64,000 bases of DNA, taken from NCBI RefSeq assembly GCF_032854445.1, contig NC_088297.1, positions 4,277,991-4,341,990 of the forward strand, written 5' to 3'. Below are positions 7,596 to 50,132 of this stretch, one piece after another. Each line of letters begins with the position of its first letter. The stretch's first letter is position 1. This DNA is from Liolophura sinensis. Taxonomy: Eukaryota > Mollusca > Polyplacophora > Chitonida > Chitonidae. The position numbers and the translations under genes were made by a program. Below the pieces are notes generated by a model. The model was not told the origin of the DNA, did not search any database, and saw only the letters and a program-made list of their open reading frames with translations.

Positions 7596-7795
7596 NNNNN
7601 NNNNNNNNNNNNNNNNNNNNNNNNNNNNNNNNNNNNNNNNNNNNNNNNNNNNNNNNNNNNNNNNNNNNNNNNNNNNNNNNNNNNNNNNNNNNNNNNNNNN
7701 NNNNNNNNNNNNNNNNNNNNNNNNNNNNNNNNNNNNNNNNNNNNNNNNNNNNNNNNNNNNNNNNNNNNNNNNNNNNNNNNNNNNNNNNNNNNNNN
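7596..7795. other. Assembly gap (200 N)
   Basis: Exactly 200 unknown bases, a length usually used as a placeholder, so the true distance is not known. Reading frames that cross it are meaningless. Confidence 0.99.
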
Positions 7796-13269: not shown

Positions 13270-16200
13270 CTGAAAGTTGAAGAATGAAATATTAGAGAAA
13301 ACGTAATAAAACGTTGTAACTGAACTAACCTTTCTCATCTGTAAAGCAAAATATGAAGGTATACATCAATACCTCCATGAGCCAATTTTTTGTTGCTCTG
13401 ATGTACAGTCATCCATTCGTCCAGTACCAATCGTTAACTGGCCACACAGTACTGGTCAAGCGTACGGTGTCGTGCAATACCGCAAGGTTCGTAAATGTAT
13501 AGCGCTACTGTACAGCAGAAAAGAATCGCCACTCGCGACCACTAACTCTCTCTTTCTCCCACACTATACACATTACAAAGCTGATTTACACCTTCCATCT
13601 GCTCAGCCTACCCTAGAGCATGTAACAACACAAAAAATAGTTTTTCTATTTAATAAGCACTACTTTTAATTCATCCATTTTTAATAACTTCATGTTAAAA
13701 ATCAATAGTTTTGTTATTTTTAGCAAAAGAAAGCACTATTTTTCTATTCAACAGTAAGAAAAAGATCATTTTTAGCTTAAAAGTGGAGAAAACATAAAAA
13801 CTACATAAAGTCCAGATGAAAGAGTACGAAAAGATAGCTGTCAATGTGTTCTTCAATATTTTGTTCCATTTTTCTTTAAAGAGAAATGTTCTATTTACAA
13901 ACAAACAAAAAATATCCGGCTGTTTTTAGTACAGGTAACAGGCTAGAAAATTAAGCTAATTTAGCTGCTAAAAGGACAAAAAACTTTTTGTTCATTTGCT
14001 GGCCAAGAAAAAAGCTTATCTGCCGATATTCAACTTCAGGTTTGTGACAATCATAAACTATACATGTCACGTTTCTCAGTGTTAAGAGCATGTAGTCATT
14101 TGCGCCCCCCCCCCCCCCCCCACCATTCACCAGGCAAACGTACAGCCTAACTACACATTCGCTATTACTCACTTCCTATCTTGAACACGGAACACCTCTC
14201 TCTGCACAGAATTTGTATCCGTGTTATCACAGATGATTCGTGCGAAGGAAGCTTTTCGAATCTGGTCTAGTTGTCCTGAAACAAAATTAAAGACAGTTTA
14301 TTGTAAAGTGACTGACAGAGTGCTCTCCCCTTGGAACAGAAATGGGGCGCCACTTATGTTGTGATCGCTGGGTTCATCATGATGACACATAAAGTGATGT
14401 CAGAAAACACAATCACTGTGTCTCAACCTTTCTTTGTATCTCTAATAGATGCACATGATTTTCTTTGTCTAAAGCATGCGCAACGATTCTAACGGACAGC
14501 TTAAACCATTTTATTGATGAATGCTGACTATAGGTTGACGGGGAGGTCATCAATGGCGATACGTATCTTAAACAGGGTCACATCCGTCTCACCGGCTCCA
14601 AAGGTCAAACATACGCGCTAAAAGGAGTATAATAACACTGTTTAATTACAGTCGGCGCTGTATTATTTGTTGTATAGGCAACTATATTCCCTAATTTTTT
14701 GGCGCACTTTCATTTTGTAAGCATTTGTTGAAAATACTTTTGACCCGTTTTCTTCAAATTTTTCCGACCCGGTTTTACGTTTAATTTCTATTGCGTTTTA
14801 CTTTGCCCAGGTTTGGTGTGCTTTTTGGAGAAATTATTTTTTCTACTGTTCTTGGTTTCACGATTGGCGTGTTGTTTGTCTCAGTTTTTATATCGATTTT
14901 TTGTCTCTTAAAAATAAACAAGGGGCGGGAAAATGTTCACACTTCACTCTGGAAGCTTTCTTGATTTCAATAACAAAGCGTAAGGTTTGACATTTTCTCG
15001 CACTGCTTAAAGTTTACTTACCCAAGGAGAATTTGGCATATTGATCGTTATTCTCGTAGAAGAATCTGTCTCCTTTCTTGAGAAGGAAGAATTGTCTGCT
15101 GACGATACAAGCAATGGTTGGGCCGACGACTGCGCCTCTGATCACCTTCTCCGAAACGGCGCCTGTCCATAGGTCAATGTCGTCCACATGACTGAAAATA
15201 TACACACCCATTGGTCAATGGAATGGTGTAGGTGTTACAGCCAGACATTGTAACTGTTGGGTGCCGGTACAAGAAATACATGTGAAATATTTCCAACACA
15301 TCTGTTCGTTCCTCAGTACCATTTTGTTGCCTCAGAACGAAAGATTACATGTCATGTTATCAGTTTTTTATTTCCAAATTGAAACGAATTCGCCCTACAG
15401 AACCTATAGCATATCGGGCGAACATCACGTGAGTGAGTGAGTGAGTGCTTGGGGTTTAACGTCGTACTCAACAATTTTTCAGTCATATGACGACGAAGGA
15501 ATCATTAGGGTGCATGCACGTGTAATGTGCCACCTTGTTGCAGGACGGATTTCCACCGCTCTTTTATTTAGTGCTGCATCACTGAGACGACTTACCGAAG
15601 GCAAGTAAGCCGCCCCGCCCGAGCCATTATACTGATACGGGTCAACCAGTCGTTGCACTATCCCCTTCATGCTGAACGCCAAGCGAGGAAGTTACAACTT
15701 CCTCTTTTAAAGTCTTAGGTGTGACTCGACCAAGGATTGATCCTGGATCTACCGGTCCGAACATCACGTGTATAAAGAGATACTTTGTCCGTCAGGTCCA
15801 AAATGAAATGACTTGTTTTGTTGCAATGAATAAACAATATGAAACCAATATGTTCACAAATTATTATCGCTAAGCCTGAATTACCTTAGGGGGCTTAACG
15901 TCTGAAATTTTGTTCTCCGTGGAGTAGTGTTACCTGTTAACTCACCTGTAGCTTTGATGTGTATGTTACCTGTTAACTCAATTGTAGCTTTGTTGTGTAT
16001 GTTAATAGTTAACTCACCTGTAGCTTTGATGTGTATGTTACCTGTTAACTCACCTGCAGCTTTAATGTGTATGTTACCTGTTAACTCAACTGTAGCTTTG
16101 TTGTACATGTTACCTGTTAACTCACCTGTAGCTTTGATGTGTATGTTACCTGTTAACTCAATTGTAGGTTTGTTGTACATGTTACCTGTTAACTCACCTG

Positions 16201-19200
16201 TAGCTTTGATGTGTATGTTACCTGTTAACTCAGTTGTAGGTTTGTTGTGTATGTGAATAGTTAACTCACCTGTAGCTTTGATGTGTATGTTACCTGTTAA
16301 CTCACCTGTAGCTTTGATGTGTATGTTACCTGTTAACTCAACTGTAGCTTTGTTGTACATGTTACCTGTTAACTCACCTGTAGTTTTGATGTGTATGTTA
16401 CCTGTTAACTCAACTGTAGCTTTGGTGTGTATGTTACCTTTTAACTCACCTGTAGCTTTGATGTGTATGTTACCTGTTAACTCACCTGCAGCTTTGGTGT
16501 GTATGTTACCTGTTAACTCATCTGTAGCTTTGTTGTACATGTTACCTGTTAACTCACCTGTAGCTTTGATGTGTATGTTACCTGTTAACTCACCTGTAGC
16601 TTTGATGTGTATGTTACCTGTTAACTCACTTGCAGCTTTGGTGTGTATGTTACCTTTTAACTCACCTGTAGCTTTGATGTGTATGTTACCTGTTAACTCA
16701 CCTGCAGCTTTGATGTGTATGTTACCTGTTAACTCATCTGTAGCTTTGATGTGTATGTTACCTGTTAACTCACCTGCAAGCTTTGATGTGCATGTTTTCT
16801 GTTAGCTTACCTGTAGGCTTTTTCCAGGAGGCGGGCAGCCCGGCGGTTGTGGTGTACCAAACCAAAACGACCTCTACCAAAGTTTAGGACCCTCGAGAGT
16901 CCACACCAAACCCGGAAAGCATTGTAAGAGGGTATCCCGAAATCACGCCCTCTCTGGATATTGGTTGCGGCCAAATCAATGCCAGTGCCGGGAACTTTGG
17001 CAAACAAGGTGTTGGTGAGCTGCTCACTGATCAAACGGTCGCATTTCTGCTGTTTTTTGCTAAATAGAGCCTTGATGACAAAACTTGGACCCTTGGATCT
17101 ATCATAAAGAGTTTCTGGTCGGAGAAAATGGTCTTGAAACTTTAGGTTTTTGGCAAAAAATCTTTGAACCAGGCTGTGACCGAATCGGTACCCGGCCGCG
17201 GAAAACGAAGAAGTGATTTGGGCGTTGATGTAAGGGCCGTATTCGCTGTTGTATCCGTGTTTCTTGGCCGGAAAATCGAAAGCTTTAGCGAGTTCTTTGC
17301 CAACGATGACGGGCAGGAACTCGTCATAGACCACGTGCTGGAACTCGGCGGAGACGATTCTGCGGGCCTCTTGGTACAGTTTCTCGTCCTTCCATCTCGG
17401 GTTGAGTCGTTTCAACTGGCGGGCCACCCGGTTATGTTCTCTTAGCCAGAGTGTGTGCATGCTCATGAGGGCAGGCTGCTGATTCACCCGGGGGTCACCT
17501 GGAATGGATTTGTCTTGTTTAGAAAAGGCAAGGTTTTGTTACGGCAAGTTTTAAACCAACGCATGGCTATTCCTTATCAGTACGTCGGGCTTTAACACAG
17601 CATTTTGAGTAATTCTAAACCAGTAACATTTAATAAATTGCAATAAACGTTTTTCTTTTTTATCTCTCTATCGTAAAGTATGTCAGAAGAAAGGCCATTA
17701 ACCACTGTCCATACAAATAGTTCGATTTATTTTATTAAAATTTTTTTAACCAAGTAAAATGCATTTAAATTAAATTTTGGATTCTACGGTAGCTTTTTCT
17801 GATCACATTGGGACCAACGGCGTCACATTTACCAGATTTTACATCGTCATCACTTCTCTATACTCTCTGTACAATCTTTTGTGGATGATCTTACCTGCCT
17901 TAAAGCACACATCATTGCCTTTCGCTTCGCACTCGGCCGGCCTCAGCGATCTGTCCTGCAAGAGCAGGTCTCCGTTTTGGCTTTTAGTCGTCCTCAACAA
18001 ACCTGGGAATACAATCGCAGTTTAGAATACAGGGTAAATTGCTGAGATCTACTGGTCATTATGGCTGGGAGGTATACAATTATTGAATGATATTAATCAT
18101 TGTATCAGCTTATGTTAGAATGCACTGATTACTACAACAACAAAATGGTCGCTGACCGTTCCTTCTAAGGCGTAGATCCCTGGCCAGTTTCTCGGAGCTG
18201 CCGTATATCGCCGAACCGTCCAGGTACGCTGTTTCCTGATTCAGTTGCTGTCGAGGACCTACAAATACAGACGTGAGACTGAATTGTGATTGGCTGGGGA
18301 CTAAACATCTACGTGTACGTATGAGCGTTTCTAGATTCACTTCCATTGTTTTCGGGGCATTGGTGGAAATAAGCATCCCTCAGTGCTTTCTTGTGTGGTC
18401 TTGAATGACACAAAAGAGCTTTATTCCGATTTCCGATTTCTTCCACGCAAAAAAGTAGGCAGCCATCGTATAAGTGAAACGTTCGTACGCATGGCGTAAA
18501 AGAAATATGAAATACGGTAAATAAATAAACAAATAAATAAATGTTGTGAATGGCGATGAACTTTTTCGGTGGACAAATTATTGTTCTCAGGGTTAACAAC
18601 TCAAGACTTTACAAGGTCGACCAAACTGCTAAAGAACCGTATTTGTAATTTCTCCATAGTTACCCAATCGACAGTTCAGAGGTGGGGAAGGCAAAGCTCG
18701 TGCAAACTCCATGCACGTGCGCTGGAATCGACGGAAGAAAGGGTCGTTCTGAGGAATCTCTATTGGAAAGCAGCCAAGTCTACAACATAATATAACAAAT
18801 AGTTTACTATAAAATATAAAAGGCAGCCAAGTCTCGAATACAACACACAAAAACCCCCACAAAACTGAAAGACAGCAACAGTTTACGGTAAGAGCAAAAC
18901 GTCGAATGATTCTAGAATATATTATACACAGAAACAGTTAACATAAAACTGAAAAACAGCCAAGTCTAGGATATGGCAGTATTGAAACCAGCCTGGCTGA
19001 AAACCACACCGTCATGATGTAACAGTAATAATGCTTATATCTAAACATCTTATAAGGTGGCCATAAATGTTTATATCTAACACCTTATAAGGTGGCCATA
19101 AATGTTTAAACACCTTATAAGGTGGCCATAAATTCTATGCCAAAGGTAACCATATGTTCAGAACTTCACAATGTGTCGATCATGGCAGAGTAAATAGCAG

Positions 19201-22200
19201 AGGATGCTGTCTGGAGTTCTTCTGGTGACCGAAATACACGGAATCAAAGCTTAAGTGAAATAATTGTTTGATTACAGTGTTGACATGAAAAAAAAAACAA
19301 TACATTATAAAAAAAAAACATAACTCTGACAGGTTTAAAGCGGTGACTCGTTTTCAATAGGCTTCTGTTTTGGTGATGGAGACAAAAAAGTGAACAAATT
19401 TGATAACTCCAAGAGAAGCGGTTGTACAGATACAATGGTAAGGCAAAAAACTTTCTGAACGGATTGATGGATAACGGCATACAATAATAGAAGCCGTAAC
19501 GCGGGGTAAAAACAACAACAGCAACAAATAAAATAAAACAAAAACGGCAAAACAAACAAATGTTATTAGATACTTCATTCAATCTAAAACAAGCAATTTT
19601 CAAGACGTGTCGCCTATGTCACTTCCTGTACATACAAATGTTCGCGTTTTCGACGACGTGTTACAACAAAAGTAATTACGTAGTACACAAAAATTCAAAT
19701 GTCGTGTGAGAGAACGATGCGCGCAACAACTTGATGCCTAATCGCTTTGGGTGTTATACCGCATCTTGTGAAGGATTAAGTCCAACGTACCTTCTCCGTC
19801 TTGGAGTGAGTCTGTCACAACAGATCAACTCTGACCCATTAGGTTCTAAAAGCAAAAAAAAAAAAAAAAAAAAAAACTGATCAGAGGACGTTTTTAACAT
19901 TTAAAATGAGAAATGCACTATGAAGGTGCAATACACAGTACCTACTCGAAGATAGTGTTACATTATTACAACATTTTACAACAACTGTAAATATTATACC
20001 ATAAATGTTTTCTCTCGTTTATTACTGCCAAAATGTTGGTTTAACATTATTAAAATTACATGTAACATTTCCGTTTTAAGGTTGTAACGGAGAGTTTAAC
20101 TGGATTCGAACTCAGGGGAAGAATTTAAAGCGCAAGAGCTGTGATGCAGTAGCTACATCTCCACCGACCTTGACTAAGGGCCGTTCTCTCGGTGTCATGG
20201 CTGACGAACTGACCAAACTCCATGGTGATCTGTGTGAACCTCATATCTAGTGTCCTCACTCTGCTCGCTTGGTGTATCGTGGTGCTGATCACACGAGGAA
20301 GAGGAAGGTTACCGCCCTGCACGCTACGGGAACGAGGTTCAGACAGACCTGAAACGAAATGGCGACAAACATTGAAAATAGGAATCGGGCTCAGGGATCA
20401 GGAAGCGATCTTAGACTTAAAGTCAAAATTTGAAATCAACTTAAAATTGTTATTTTGTATGTAACTAGGTCAAGATATTACTTTGTCAAAGCAAACAAAT
20501 TTCAGATGAAATAAAGCGAAGGAACACAGACCGACCAAGTATAATGATTAAAACACTATTTTCACTTCCTCTTCTCGGATTTTTATTTAAATTATACACT
20601 TTTTTTTGCTATTAGCTAGCAGTTTTATTGTACGATTGGATTGCATGATTGGTCCAATCCAATCAAATAATATCTTTTAAATTTGGACGATGATTGATTT
20701 TCCTGGCGAGAGTGTAAAAGGTGTCGGATATTGATGAACCGCCGAGTTACGCCCCCTTGACGTTGATAGGTACCCATCCGGTCTGCTTGCAGAGGAAGGT
20801 CCAGATTTGGATGGTCAACCGTGAACCACGGAAAAATGTCAAGGTTTTTTTTATCCACTTTCTTACAAGTTAGACATCATTACTTATTGTGCATGAATAC
20901 CCATTGGGGCTCAGTGACAGCACTATACCTTAACATTCTCGCTTATGGAAAGCTAAAATGCGCCTGAGGCCATATTTTCCTTCTCTTGGAATTCTCGGTA
21001 GATTGCGATTGTTTGCTAAAGGGTCATTACTCTTACCGTCATTGTAGACAGAAGGTAGGCTTCTCTCGAACGGTGTATTGGAACTCCCAAAACGGGGATG
21101 CTGCAGATTATTACAGAGACCAGTAATAGTCCTGTACTTAGCACGTGGATTGCACGTCACTGGTTTTGAGAATGGACAGTTTATTGCATTATTAGTACCG
21201 GGAAATCCCTGTGGATCGGAGCGTTCACCGGCACCAAGTCTGGAAATAAGGATTTAAGGAGCTTTATTCATTCATCTTTATTCACTCTTCCATCATAAAT
21301 ATCCCCGTCACAACATCAATACTCCATCTCTCAAATCAGGAACATTCTTTTCATTATATCCCCACTCACCCTCTCTCCTCCACCGTTATTATCACTATCA
21401 TTACATCCCCACTCACCCGCTCTCCTCCACCGTTATTATCACTGTCATTACATCCCCACTCACCCGCTCTCCTCCACTGTTAATATCACCATCATTACGT
21501 ACCCACTCACCCGCTCTCGTCCACCGTTATTATTACTGTCATTACATCCCCACTCACCCGCTCTCCTCCACCGTTATTATCACTATCATTACATCCCCAC
21601 TCACCCGCTCTCGTCCACCGTTATCATCACTATCATTACATCCCCACTCACCCGCTGTCGTCCACCGTTATCATCACTATCATTACATCCCCACTCACCT
21701 GCTCTCCTCCACCGTTATTATCACTATCATTACATCCCCACTCACCCGCTCTCCTCCACCATTATTATCACCATCATTACATGCCCACTCACCCGCTCTC
21801 CTCCACCGTTATTATTACTATCATTACATCCCCACTCACCCACTCTCCTCCACCGTTATTATCACTATCATTACATCCCCACTCACCCACTCTCATCCAC
21901 CGTTATCATCACTATCATTACATCCCCACTCACCCGCTGTCGTCCACCGTTATCATCACTGTCATTACATCCCCACTCACCCGCTCTCGTCCACCGTTAT
22001 CATCACTATCATTACAACCCCACTCACCCGCTCTCGTCCACCGTTATCATCACTATCATTACATCCCCACTCACCCGCTCTCCTACACCGTTATTATCAC
22101 TACCATTACATCCCCACTCACCGACTCTCCTCCACCATTTTTATCACTACCATTACATCCCCACTCACCCACTTGCCTCCACCATTATTATCTGTCATTA

Positions 22201-25200
22201 CATCCCCACCCACCCACTCTCCTCCACCGTTATCATCACTATCATTACATCCCCACTCACCCACTCTCCTCCACCGTTATTATCACTATCATTACATCCC
22301 CACTCACCCGCTCTCCTCCACCGTTATCATCACTATCATTACATCCCCACTCACCCGCTCTCCTCCACCGTTATTATCACTGTCATTACATCCCCACTCA
22401 CCTGCTCTCCTCCACCGTTATCATCTCTATCATTACATCCCCACTCACCTGCTCTCCTCCACCGTTATTATCACTATCATTACATCCCCACTCACCCGCT
22501 CTCGTCCACCGTTATTATCACTGTCATTACATCCCCACTCACCTGCTCTCCTCCACCGTTATTATCACTACCATTACATCCCCACTCACCCACTCGCCTC
22601 CACCATTATTATCACTGTCATTACATCCCCACTCACCCGCTCTCCTCCACCGTTATCATCACTATCATTACATCCCCACTCACCTGCTCTCCTCCACCGT
22701 TATTATCACTACCATTACATCCCCACTCACCCACTCGCCTCCACCATTATTATCACTGTCATTACATCCCCACTCACCCGCTCTCCTACACCGTTATTAT
22801 CACTACCATTACATCCCCACTCACCTGCTCTCCTCCACCGTTATCATCACTATCATTACATCCCCACTCACCCGCTCTCCTCCACCATTATTATCACTAC
22901 CATTACATCCCCACTCACCCGCTCTCCTCCACCGTTATCATCACTATCATTACATCCCCACTCACCCGCTCTCCTCCACCATTATTATCACTACCAATAC
23001 ATCCCCACTCACCCACTCGCCTCCACCATTATTATTACTGTCATTACATCCCCACTCACCCACTCTCCTCCACCGTTATTATCACTATCATTACATCCCC
23101 ACTCACCCGCTCTCCTCCACCGTTATCATCACTATCATTACATTCCCACTCACCCGCTCTCGTCCACCGTTATCATCACTATCATTACATCCCCACTCAC
23201 CCGCTCTCGTCCACCGTTATCATCACTATCATTACATCCCCACTCACCCGCTCTCCTCCACCGTTATTATCACTACCATTACATCCCCACTCACCCGCTC
23301 TCGTCCACCGTTATCATCACTGTCATTACATCCCCACTCACCCGCTCCCCTCCCCCGTTATTATCACTACCATTACATCCCCACTCACCGACTCTCGTCC
23401 ATTGTTATCATCACTGTCATTACATCCCCACTCACCCGCTCCCCTCCCCGTTATTATCACTACCATTACATCCCCACTCACCCACTCTTGTCCACCGTTA
23501 TCATCATTGTCATTACATCCCCACTCACCCGCTCCCCTCCCCCGTTATTATCACTACCATTACATCCCCACTCACCCGCTCTTCTCCACCGTTATTATCA
23601 CTGTCATTACATCCCCACTCACCCGCTCTCCTCCACCGTTATCATCACTATCATTACATCCCCACTCACCCACTCTCCTCCACCGTTATTATCACTATCA
23701 TTACATCCCAACTCACCGACTCGCCTCCACCGTTATCATCACTATCATTACATCCCCACTCACCCACTCTCCTCCACCGTTATTATCACTATCATTACAT
23801 CCCCACTCACCGACTCTCCTCCACCGTTATCATCACTATCATTACATCCCCACTCACCCGCTCTCCTCCACCATTATTATCACTACCAATACATCCCCAC
23901 TCACCCACTCTCCTCCACCGTTATTATCACTATCATTACATCCTCACTCACCCGCTCTCCTCCACCGTTATCATCACTACCATTACATCCCCACTCACCC
24001 GCTCTCCTCCACCGTTATCATCACTACCATTACATCCCCACTCACTCGCTCTCCTCCACCGTTATCATGACTATCATTACATCCCCACTCACCCGCTCCC
24101 TTCCCCCGTTATTATCACTACCATTACATCCCCACTCACCCGCTCTCTTCCACCGTTATCATCACTGTCATTACATCCCCACTCACCCGCTTCCCTCCCC
24201 CGTTACTATCACTACCATTACATCCCCACTCACCCACTCTCGTCCACCGTTATCATCACTGTCATTACATCCCCACTCACCCGCTCCCCTCCACCGTTAT
24301 TATCACTACCATTACATCCCCACTCACCCACTCTCGTCCACCGTTATCATGACTATCATTACACCCCCACTCACCCGCTCCCCCCCATCGTTATTATCAC
24401 TATCATTACATCCCCACTCACCCACTCTCGTCCACCGTTATCATCATTATCATTACATCCCCACTCACCCGCTCCCCTCCCCCGTTATTATCACTACCAT
24501 TACATCCCCACTCACCCACTTTCGTCCACCGTTATTATCACTACCATTACATCCCCACTCACCCACTCTCGTCCACCGTTATCATCACTATCATTACATC
24601 CCCACTCACCCACTCCCCTCCACCGTTATTATCACTGTCATTACATCCCCACTCACCCACTCTCGTCCACCGTTATCATCACTGTCATTACATCCCCACT
24701 CACCTGCTCCCCTCCCCCGTTATTATCACTACCATTACATCCCCACTCACCCACTCTCGTCCACCGTTATCATTACATCCCCACTCACCCGCTCCCCTCC
24801 ACCATTATTATCACCCACTCTCGTCCACCGTTATCATCACTGTCATTACATCCCCACTCACCCGCTCCCCTCCCCCGTTATTATCACTACCATTACATCC
24901 CCACTCACCCGCTCTCCTCCACCGTTATCATCACTGTCATTACATCCCCACTCACCCGCTCTCCTCCACCATTATTATCACTATCATTACATCCCCACTC
25001 ACCCGCTCTCCTCCACCGTTATCATCACTATCATTACATCCCCACTCACCCGCTCTCCTCCACCGTTATCATCACTATCATTACATCCCCACTCACCGAC
25101 TCTCCTCCACCGTTATCATGACTATCATTACACCCCCACTCACCTGCTCTCCTCCCCCGTTATTATCACTATCATTACATCCCCACTCACTCGCTCTCGT

Positions 25201-28200
25201 CCACCGTTATCATCACTATCATTACTTCCCCACTCACCCGCTCCCCTCCACCGTTATTATCACTACCATTACATCCCCACTCACCGCTCTCGTCCACCGT
25301 TATCATCACTGTCATTACATCCCCACTCACCCGCTCCCCTCCACCGTTATTATCACTACCATTACATCCCACTCACCCGCTCTCGTCCACCGTTATCATA
25401 ACTATCATTACACCCCCAATCACCCACTCGCCTCCACCATTATTATCACTGTCATTACATCCCCACTTAACCGCTCTCTTGCACTGTTATTATCACTATC
25501 ATTACATCCCCACTCACCCGCTCTCCTCCACCGTTATTATCACTGTCATTACATCCCCACTCACCCACTCTCGTCCACCGTTATCATCACTGTCATTACA
25601 TCCCCACTCACCCGCTCTCCTGCACTGTTATTATCACTATCATTACATCCCCACTCACCCGCTCTCGTCCACCATTATTATCACCATCATTACATCCCCA
25701 CTCACCCGCTCTCCTCCACCGTTATTATCACTATCATTACATCCCCACTCACACACTCTCCTCCACCGTTATCATCACTATCATTACATCCCCACTCACC
25801 CGCTCTCCTCCACGGTTATCATCACTATCATTACATCCCCACTCACCCGCTCTCCTCCACCGTTATTATCATTATCATTACATCCCCACTCACCCGCTCT
25901 CCTCCACCGTTATCATCATTATCATTACATCCCCACTCACCCGCTCTCCTCCACCGTTATCATCACTATCATTACATCCCCACTCACCCGCTCTCGTCCA
26001 CCGTTATCATCACTATCAATACATCCTCACTTACCGTGGTTGGAGAACCTTAGATGCGCCGTCGTGCGCGAATCCCGCTTTGCCAATTAACTTAGCCTCA
26101 TTATTTAGTAACAACTGAGGATTAAATGGGAACGTATCAGGCAGATTCGGGGGACGAGCTGAAATACCAAATGTAAAATTGTTCAAATTTTTGCATTTGT
26201 CTGTGATATGCTTCTGTCGGATGTAACGGCGTGACACATTACAGCGGTCACGGTGCCTCATGAATGTACTCCACAGTGGTTGATACCTCTTCCTATTACA
26301 GGCGAGATAAATCCAACTGGAATAGGAAAGTTTCGAGTTGGAACTCTTTTATCGATGAGGGTCGATAAAACTCCAACTGTATCACGTGACTTGTCAAAAA
26401 TGTTAGGCAGCTATTTTTGATAACATTTACTATATCATGGGCGTTTGAAAAAAGTTTCAAAAAAAATAATTTAGAACTGACGACCAGTGATGAAAATTGA
26501 GAAGGTGAACGTTTGTGAACTAGAGAAGTTCCTAAAGGAAGCGGGTGTCATTTGTGTCTCCGGAACAGGGTGAGAGAGGTGATCGGTAAAGGTTGCCTAA
26601 CATTTTTCACGAGTCACATGATACAATTGGACTGTTTTTACCTTTAACGACAAAATCGTTCCAACTGGAAACTCCTCTATAGCAGCGTGTAAAGCAACCA
26701 GAAACTAATCCAATGTATACAAGTAAATATACATAATATTTTCTTCAACTGCGTAACCGTATCTATGAAACAATGCTATTCTTTAAGTGAAGAGAGTTAC
26801 AGTCATCTGTGGATATATCCCCTTGGTTTATAAACTGCAACTTACGCCCAACATCGTCCGCAAACTGTGCAACTGATCTCTCCGCGTTTTGACCAATTTT
26901 CCGCAATTCTGTTCGGCTCACTGACGACGTTCTACTCTGGGTCCGCCGACTTGGCGTCTTCTTGACGCTGACTTTGTTAGCAATGGCCATGACAGTGCTA
27001 GGATTGATTGGAGACTCGTCCTGACTTGACGTCACAGCCACGTGACATAAGGCGAGTAAGGACGAGGTTAGAAGAATTCTGTGTGAAAAACAAAGAACAG
27101 AATTGATTTATCAGAACAACAGCTGAATGGCTTTCCGGGAAGGCCATATTTGTTTTAAATGGGAAACGTGCTGAAAGGGCAAAACGTACATATTTCCACC
27201 AAGACACTGACTTTGTGTCGCCAAATCTTTCGTCGAAATGGGAGTCTTCTGTGGAAGAACCGAGGTTCTTCTTACCAATGCAGTCGCACATGGGAATTTC
27301 TGGCAACAACCTGCCGATGGGCGTGGGTTTTTCTGCGCTCTGCCTAGTTTTCTCCCACCATAAATCTGGTCGCCGTCGTATAAATGATATATGCTTCAGT
27401 GGGACGTAAAACACCGATTAAATAAATGAATAAATAGATAAATAAATATATAATGTAGAAGAAGTGAGAAAAGTTCCAAAGGCAGCAAAAAATGAAAACA
27501 CTGTACGGCCACTTCACACCAGCGGAGGAAAATTAGGTAAATGGTCACTCAGTGACATGAGATGGCTTCAGTGGCCTAATGGTTAGAAGGTCCGCCTTGA
27601 AGTAGGTAGACCAGGGTTCAAACCCGGTTTGGGTCATACCAAAGATCTTAAAAGGGGTACTTGATGCTGACCCAGTTGGCAAGAAAAAATGACTGGTTGG
27701 CCCAGTGTCAGTATAATGTGACTGGGTGAGAAGATATATCTGGTGTCTTTGGCATGATCAGTGGCTGCAGCACATTGGACTCGCCCTGCCATAAGGAGAC
27801 ACATTATATGTGCAAACAACTACAAACAACAACTACAACCTACAAATCAGGGGCCTCCGTGGTTCAGTTGGTTAGCGTGCTAGCGCAGCGTAATGACCCA
27901 GGGGTCTCTCACCAATGTGGTCGCTGTGAGTTCAAGTCCAACTCATGCTGACTTCCTCTCCGGCCGTACGTGGGAAGGTCTGTCAGCCACCTGCGGATGG
28001 TCGTGGGTTTCCCCGGTGTTCTGCCCGGTTTCCTTCCACCATAATGCTGGCCGCCGTCGTGTAAGTGAAACATCGTCGAGTACGGCGTAAAACACCAATC
28101 AAATAAATAAATAAATAAATAAATCACGTTTATGTAATTAGGTGTTACGCAAGACTTTCAGATAATTCGCATCTGCCGATGTGCATGTATGCGTCTTTGT

Positions 28201-35905: not shown

Positions 35906-50132
<14,227 letters not shown>

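Follow-up and report, generated by a model that had tools for sequence, protein, structure and literature searches.

A 47-bp minisatellite anchored at the intron 3 donor of a chiton haem peroxidase gene, and a second array across the donor of intron 10

Background

The closest described system to the locus analysed here is the variable number tandem repeat (VNTR) in intron 18 of human ABCA7, which consists of a 25-bp unit starting with GT, lies directly after exon 18 and is present in about 12 to 427 copies (De Roeck et al. 2018, PMC5954066). In the excerpts of that report considered here, exon 18 has its donor in the first GT of the VNTR; splicing also occurs at a cryptic donor one unit downstream, which puts the transcript out of frame and leads to a premature stop, while VNTR length raised the skipping of exon 19 and not the one-unit retention. 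The region is described there as C-rich, with known length polymorphism and a disease link (PMC5954066). The present analysis deals with a 64,000-nucleotide stretch of contig NC_088297.1 of the chiton Liolophura sinensis (the window), in which one haem peroxidase gene on the minus strand carries two minisatellites, a 47-bp array in intron 3 (array 1) and a 36-bp array in intron 10 (array 2). The reading preferred, with a probability of roughly two in three, is that of donor-anchored intronic minisatellites, in which a tandem duplication at or across a 5' splice site was expanded, the first copy works and the rest are bystander decoys.

Other repeats of related kinds have been described. The portion of the work on human segmental-duplication paralogues consulted here reports internal tandem repeats at exon-intron boundaries, with 27 intron modifications and units averaging 30 bp in about 4 copies (PMC2812944). 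Intronic minisatellites are also mentioned, in the available extracts, for intron 3 of abalone TSSK1-like (PMC6905558), the growth hormone introns of sparids (named in PMC3045353), intron 1 of earthworm metallothionein (PMC12783039) and as CeRep25B of C. elegans (PMC4039745). A survey of donor-anchored minisatellites was not found among the matches listed, which cover open-licence literature only and are weak evidence of absence. RNA-seq from five Liolophura tissues (digestive gland, foot, gill, gonad and heart) is listed in PMC11068029 under the name L. japonica, for which a species correction has appeared (PMC12441733); the genome is probably the one that holds the present window.

Results

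The array in intron 3

Array 1 was delineated with Tandem Repeats Finder (TRF) and by alignment of its units. The features of this part of the gene are given below.

21351..26035, minus strand: array 1, 47-bp minisatellite, 97 of 100 unit starts with intact GTRAGT (TRF, unit alignment)
26029..26034, minus strand: real 5' splice site GTAAGT of intron 3, the first array 1 unit (exon chain, unit alignment)
26035..26158, minus strand: coding exon 3, second of 11 chained (open frame across junctions; identical to database protein P0001)
21240..21350, minus strand: 111 nt of intron 3 beyond array 1, acceptor at the end (exon chain)
21037..21239, minus strand: coding exon 4 (exon chain)

TRF gave a period of 47 with 100.4 copies and 88% matches. 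An earlier, sequence-only reading of this DNA had described a satellite of about 100 such units starting at the intron 3 donor and filling 4.7 of the 4.8 kb of the intron, and the measured values are in accordance with it: intron 3 (26034-21240) is 4795 nt long, array 1 occupies 4684 nt of it (97.7%), and the array edge lies at most 1 nt from the junction of exon 3 and intron 3. The junction (26035/26034) reads ...CCACG/GTAAGTGAGGATG and the array units read ...GCGG/GTGAGTGGGGATG, as had been quoted. On the sense (minus) strand the 100 unit starts comprise one GTAAGT, 96 GTGAGT and three broken forms (TTAAGT, GTGATT, GTGGGT). The single GTAAGT is the first of them and the true donor, so the real donor is indeed the boundary unit of the array; GTGAGT stands in 96 of the 99 later starts. 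The eight places said to carry a perfect consensus were recovered at matching positions, with CAG/GTGAGT in the units at 25143, 24703, 22824, 22683, 22542, 22448, 22401 and 21698. The sense strand of 27078-14173 holds GTRAGT 97 times in array 1 against 3 times in the other 7326 nt.

The last unit, a partial copy of 19 nt, is the donor block again with a small number of changes, hence the array has the donor block at both its ends. The exon side showed no likeness to the array 1 unit (its score was equalled or exceeded by 88 of 192 control GTRAG sites), and the edge of the array is therefore the junction itself, to 1 nt. Comparison of the units revealed only a slight higher-order structure, with excess likeness at lags of 2, 18 and 16 units (0.920, 0.918 and 0.915 against 0.906, standard deviation 0.003, in shuffles). 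An ungapped scan of the window found neither array unit elsewhere, the best places having 21 of 47 and 15 of 36 mismatches. On the antisense side of array 1 (21258-26118, plus strand) six long open stretches of 215 to 1305 codons were seen, because most stops of the unit lie on the sense strand.

The host gene and the annotated donors

The minus strand of the window holds two tandem animal haem peroxidase genes, whose longest open stretches matched Pfam PF03098 with E values of 5.7e-72 and 5e-71. For the array-bearing gene (gene 2), 11 exons were chained from splice signals and the open frame, giving one frame of 693 residues. This product is wholly contained, from residue 5, in a 698-residue Liolophura sinensis database protein ('chorion peroxidase-like', P0001), and the donors of the first units are therefore the annotated donors, in intron 3 as well as in intron 10. 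The database protein starts with four extra residues (MFIR) ahead of the chained product, so that one or more short coding exons precede the chain. One extra upstream exon fits the earlier numbering (exon 3, intron 3), which it would make right and which was adopted. The last coding exon of the database protein is exon 11 of the chain, and the GT after it is not a donor there. That GT and its counterpart in the other gene (gene 1) were among the 22 donors of the U1-pairing and exon-side analyses and lie outside the 20 introns used for the position and donor-copy tests.

The array in intron 10

The sequence-only reading had also held that a second array of the same gene had taken in a 5' splice site. 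This was borne out by the 36-bp units placed on the donor of intron 10, with the following features.

15928..16821, minus strand: array 2, 36-bp minisatellite spanning the intron 10 donor (TRF, units, exon-side match)
16811..17498, minus strand: coding exon 10, part of the haem peroxidase domain, ending ...AAAGCCTACAG (PF03098, E 5.7e-72, 243-aa open stretch)
15022..15191, minus strand: coding exon 11, with the acceptor of intron 10 at 15192 (exon chain)

The true donor GTAAGC comes first and is followed by 24 unit starts, 16 of them GTGAGT (15 reading CAG/GTGAGT) and 8 with the +1 G changed. A second donor-like motif, CAG/GTAACA, occurs 20 times in array 2. The unit end AAAGCTACAG resembles the end of exon 10 with a score of 8.5, which was reached by none of the 56 control AG/GTRA sites (highest 8.0); array 2 therefore copied the junction together with about 11 nt of exon. 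The breakpoints of the two arrays differ in that array 1 starts at the junction and array 2 starts about 11 nt inside exon 10, holding the whole junction. Array 2 also leaves open a sense frame of 306 codons (15881-16801, minus strand; 12-residue repeat), which differs from the frame of exon 10.

Composition and the position of array edges

The composition of array 1 is strongly biased, with a GC skew of 0.81 and a G4Hunter mean of 0.93. Such values, the frequency of tandem arrays in the window as found by TRF and the G-richness of a donor such as GTGAGTGGGG itself would suit an ordinary G-rich minisatellite, a purine-rich expansion prone to G-quadruplexes or R-loops, whose donor look and junction position are accidental. 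An accident of this kind is considered unlikely: the edge of array 1 coincides with the junction to within 1 nt, array 2 is A-rich and without skew (GC skew -0.03, G4Hunter mean 0.06) and also holds a donor, and the position test speaks against chance placement.

For that test, 46 TRF rows were reduced to 21 intervals (unit of at least 10 bp, overlaps merged), and the 8 intervals lying in the 20 introns were tested. When the 5 arrays measuring 150 bp or more were taken, nearness to donors gave a Fisher combined p of 0.0015, and with all 8 the value was 0.013; the test is small, was conceived post hoc and supposes that placement is uniform. The corresponding values for acceptors were 0.21 and 0.25. 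The other 6 of the 8 intronic arrays contained no GTRAGT. A copy of the first 14 nt of the donor (up to 4 mismatches, within 150 nt) was found at none of the 18 donors other than the two array donors. A close downstream copy is thus present at 2 of 20 donors, both of them array donors, against 13% of 574 control points, and nascent donor duplications are therefore not common in these genes. A general seeding of arrays at donors inside the window was rejected on the same count.

The sequence-only reading had argued from the two arrays to a shared mechanism. What stood of this is the preference of array edges for donors, within the limits of the test just given; a shared sequence or structural mechanism found no support. 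Unit length, sequence and composition are not the same in the two arrays, one array stops at the junction and the other runs into the exon, donors are not generally seeded, and the other 6 intronic arrays are without GTRAGT; of these, one in intron 7 of the paralogous gene is 34 nt away from the donor and another in that intron is 12 nt away from the acceptor. A wider proposition, that 5' splice sites are recurrent birthplaces of minisatellites and that ABCA7 and the chiton gene represent one general process adding dozens to hundreds of decoy donors, is regarded as doubtful. Candidate causes of such seeding would be co-transcriptional binding of U1, an R-loop or a replication conflict where exon and intron meet, or a tolerance for duplications in which a donor is copied.

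The paralogue and the end of exon 3

The paralogous gene 1 lies about 11 kb upstream of gene 2, and its counterparts of the two introns are free of the arrays.

37777..47531, minus strand: tandem paralogue gene 1, 696-residue open frame (ten introns, order and phases as in gene 2)
45442..46410, minus strand: paralogue counterpart of intron 3, 969 nt, without the 47-bp array (TRF, exon chain)
39006..39309, minus strand: paralogue counterpart of intron 10, 304 nt, without the 36-bp array (TRF, exon chain)

Intron gain by tandem duplication would be marked by a new intron position, and no such position was found at either array, both introns being shared with the paralogue in the same order and phases. 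The comparison did reveal a difference in exon 3, which has 124 nt in gene 2 and 118 nt in the paralogue; the 6-nt difference lies, by eye, at the 3' end, and the phase is kept. This extra length, together with the lack of exon homology in array 1, is what would be expected if the array had been born just inside the intron and the exon end had then slid a few nucleotides to the first donor-like unit. Such a capture of the donor is judged improbable. In 12 other database proteins that were aligned, the homologous stretch is too variable to tell a 6-nt insertion from a loss, and the account misfits array 2, which carries exon sequence.

The product of the paralogue is 64% identical to the query protein in the alignment. 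It was not among the 120 matches listed of 308 database matches, and it may be unannotated or misjoined. Intron 7 of the paralogue (41877-40711) has two minisatellites, 41236-41843 (36 bp) and 40723-40890 (32 bp); the first starts 34 nt after the donor and the second ends 12 nt before the acceptor, thus bordering the 3' splice site region. GTRAGT is absent from both, and GTAAAT is found 5 times in the second. Intron 2 of the paralogue has, at 45530-45689, 2.2 tandem copies of a 72-bp unit that looks like an interspersed repeat. Elsewhere in the window, a 200-base run of N at 7596-7795 is probably an assembly gap.

Function and selection of the donor copies

Translation past either junction meets a stop at once, CGG TAA in intron 3 and AGG TAA in intron 10, so that use of a later copy or retention of the intron would not give a full-length protein. 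In array 1, every sense frame contains more than 200 stops.

The abundance of intact donor copies raises the alternative of a selected decoy array, in which repeated 5' splice sites bind the U1 small nuclear ribonucleoprotein (U1 snRNP) and are kept to regulate intron 3 through retention, slow splicing or shielding from premature polyadenylation. The 97 intact unit starts are in keeping with it, as is the freedom of columns 1-18 of the unit from common variants, which is taken up below. Pairing with the 5' end of U1 gave a divided result. With wobble pairs counted, 92 of 96 array 1 copies outpair the true donor (mean -12.1 against -10.1 kcal/mol), whereas with Watson-Crick pairs only the true donor (-9.6) outpairs the four copy types scored (-5.1 to -8.3), which cover 89 of the 96 copies. 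The outcome depends on the weight given to G-U pairs. AATAAA is absent from the sense strand of array 1, as shielding from polyadenylation might lead one to expect, but this lack is what repeated sequence gives anyway.

The variation among the units does not favour upkeep of the donors. Private variants are not depleted in the donor hexamer of array 1, where they occupy 3 of 600 cells, compared with 21 of 4067 outside it (odds ratio 0.97), and the donors of array 2 are decaying, with the +1 G lost in 8 of 24. There is little sign of selection for the donor copies, and the paralogue manages without an array. Maintenance of the copies by selection is accordingly held to be very unlikely. At the +3 position, both working donors have A, while G stands in 98 of 99 later copies of array 1 and in 24 of 24 copies of array 2.

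Two further candidates were tried and rejected. RNA structure that hides the decoys was not seen at 25900-26060, which holds the end of the exon with the first units: its fold is not more stable than those of shuffled sequences (z 1.01), of which 171 of 200 equalled or exceeded it in stability. Recursive splicing at ratchet points is defined by a 3' splice site with its pyrimidine tract directly before a GT. No pyrimidine tract precedes the array GTs, the preceding sequence being purine-rich and, by eye, typically GGTGGAGGAGAGCGG, and CAG/GTGAGT is confined to 8 units.

Discussion

The reading of the arrays as donor-anchored minisatellites with passive copies is favoured because the edge of array 1 falls on the junction, the array fills 97.7% of its intron, the paralogue introns are free of arrays, the position test points to donors, the first donors are the annotated ones, the frame is stopped immediately beyond them, and ABCA7 provides a precedent. 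For both arrays, a short tandem duplication with its upstream end at or just before the 5' splice site would have been followed by expansion through slippage or unequal exchange. The 19-nt donor block at both ends of array 1 is what recombination between two copies spaced 47 nt apart would be expected to leave. As the only copy next to the exon, the first would remain the working donor, and the other copies would be passive decoys. Most of the array DNA would then be neutral or slightly harmful, and effects on splicing would arise only through length or through leakage to the nearest decoys, as in human ABCA7.

Several points weigh against this reading. The p value for nearness to donors is the weaker 0.013 when all 8 intronic arrays are included, and the occurrence of two such arrays in one gene exceeds what chance easily gives. 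The use of the first donor is taken from the database protein and the reading frame. In addition, all 12 columns with common variants (minor count of at least 5) lie outside columns 1-18 of the 47-nt unit (P 0.001, with block limits picked after looking; columns 1-6 alone give P 0.15), and passive decoys would not need such a pattern. Common variants thus hit 12 of the 29 remaining columns and none of the 18 on the donor side, a split that private variants do not have. The pattern of the common variants may reflect recombination inside the repeated block.

Comparison with known systems

Elements of this kind were known before. The chiton gene extends them to a mollusc and to two independent arrays within a single gene, one of which has exon sequence in its unit. 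As far as the extracts on ABCA7 go (PMC5954066), array 1 has the same geometry as its VNTR: it starts at the 5' splice site of an exon, its first unit supplies the donor and the later units carry copies of it. The chiton array differs in its 47-bp unit (25 bp in ABCA7), its G-rich sense strand, its molluscan host and the second independent array in the same gene. The chiton arrays were analysed in one sequence, whereas for ABCA7 the same extracts give polymorphism and measured effects on splicing. The human duplicated genes, in the portion of that report consulted (PMC2812944), share with the chiton the boundary minisatellites that differ between paralogues; there the repeats can form novel introns, while the chiton case is an enlarged intron at an old position. 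In the abalone, sparid, earthworm and C. elegans cases the arrays lie inside introns and some are polymorphic or tied to alternative splicing, and the extracts of those sources contain no statement that the array starts at the donor.

The architecture of the ABCA7 risk VNTR is not peculiar to ABCA7: a single chiton gene has it two times over, with a different breakpoint in each array. This raises the genome-wide question of whether minisatellite edges are enriched at donors, and the chiton gene offers a test, set up by nature, of how a single donor is chosen by the spliceosome among about a hundred near-copies.

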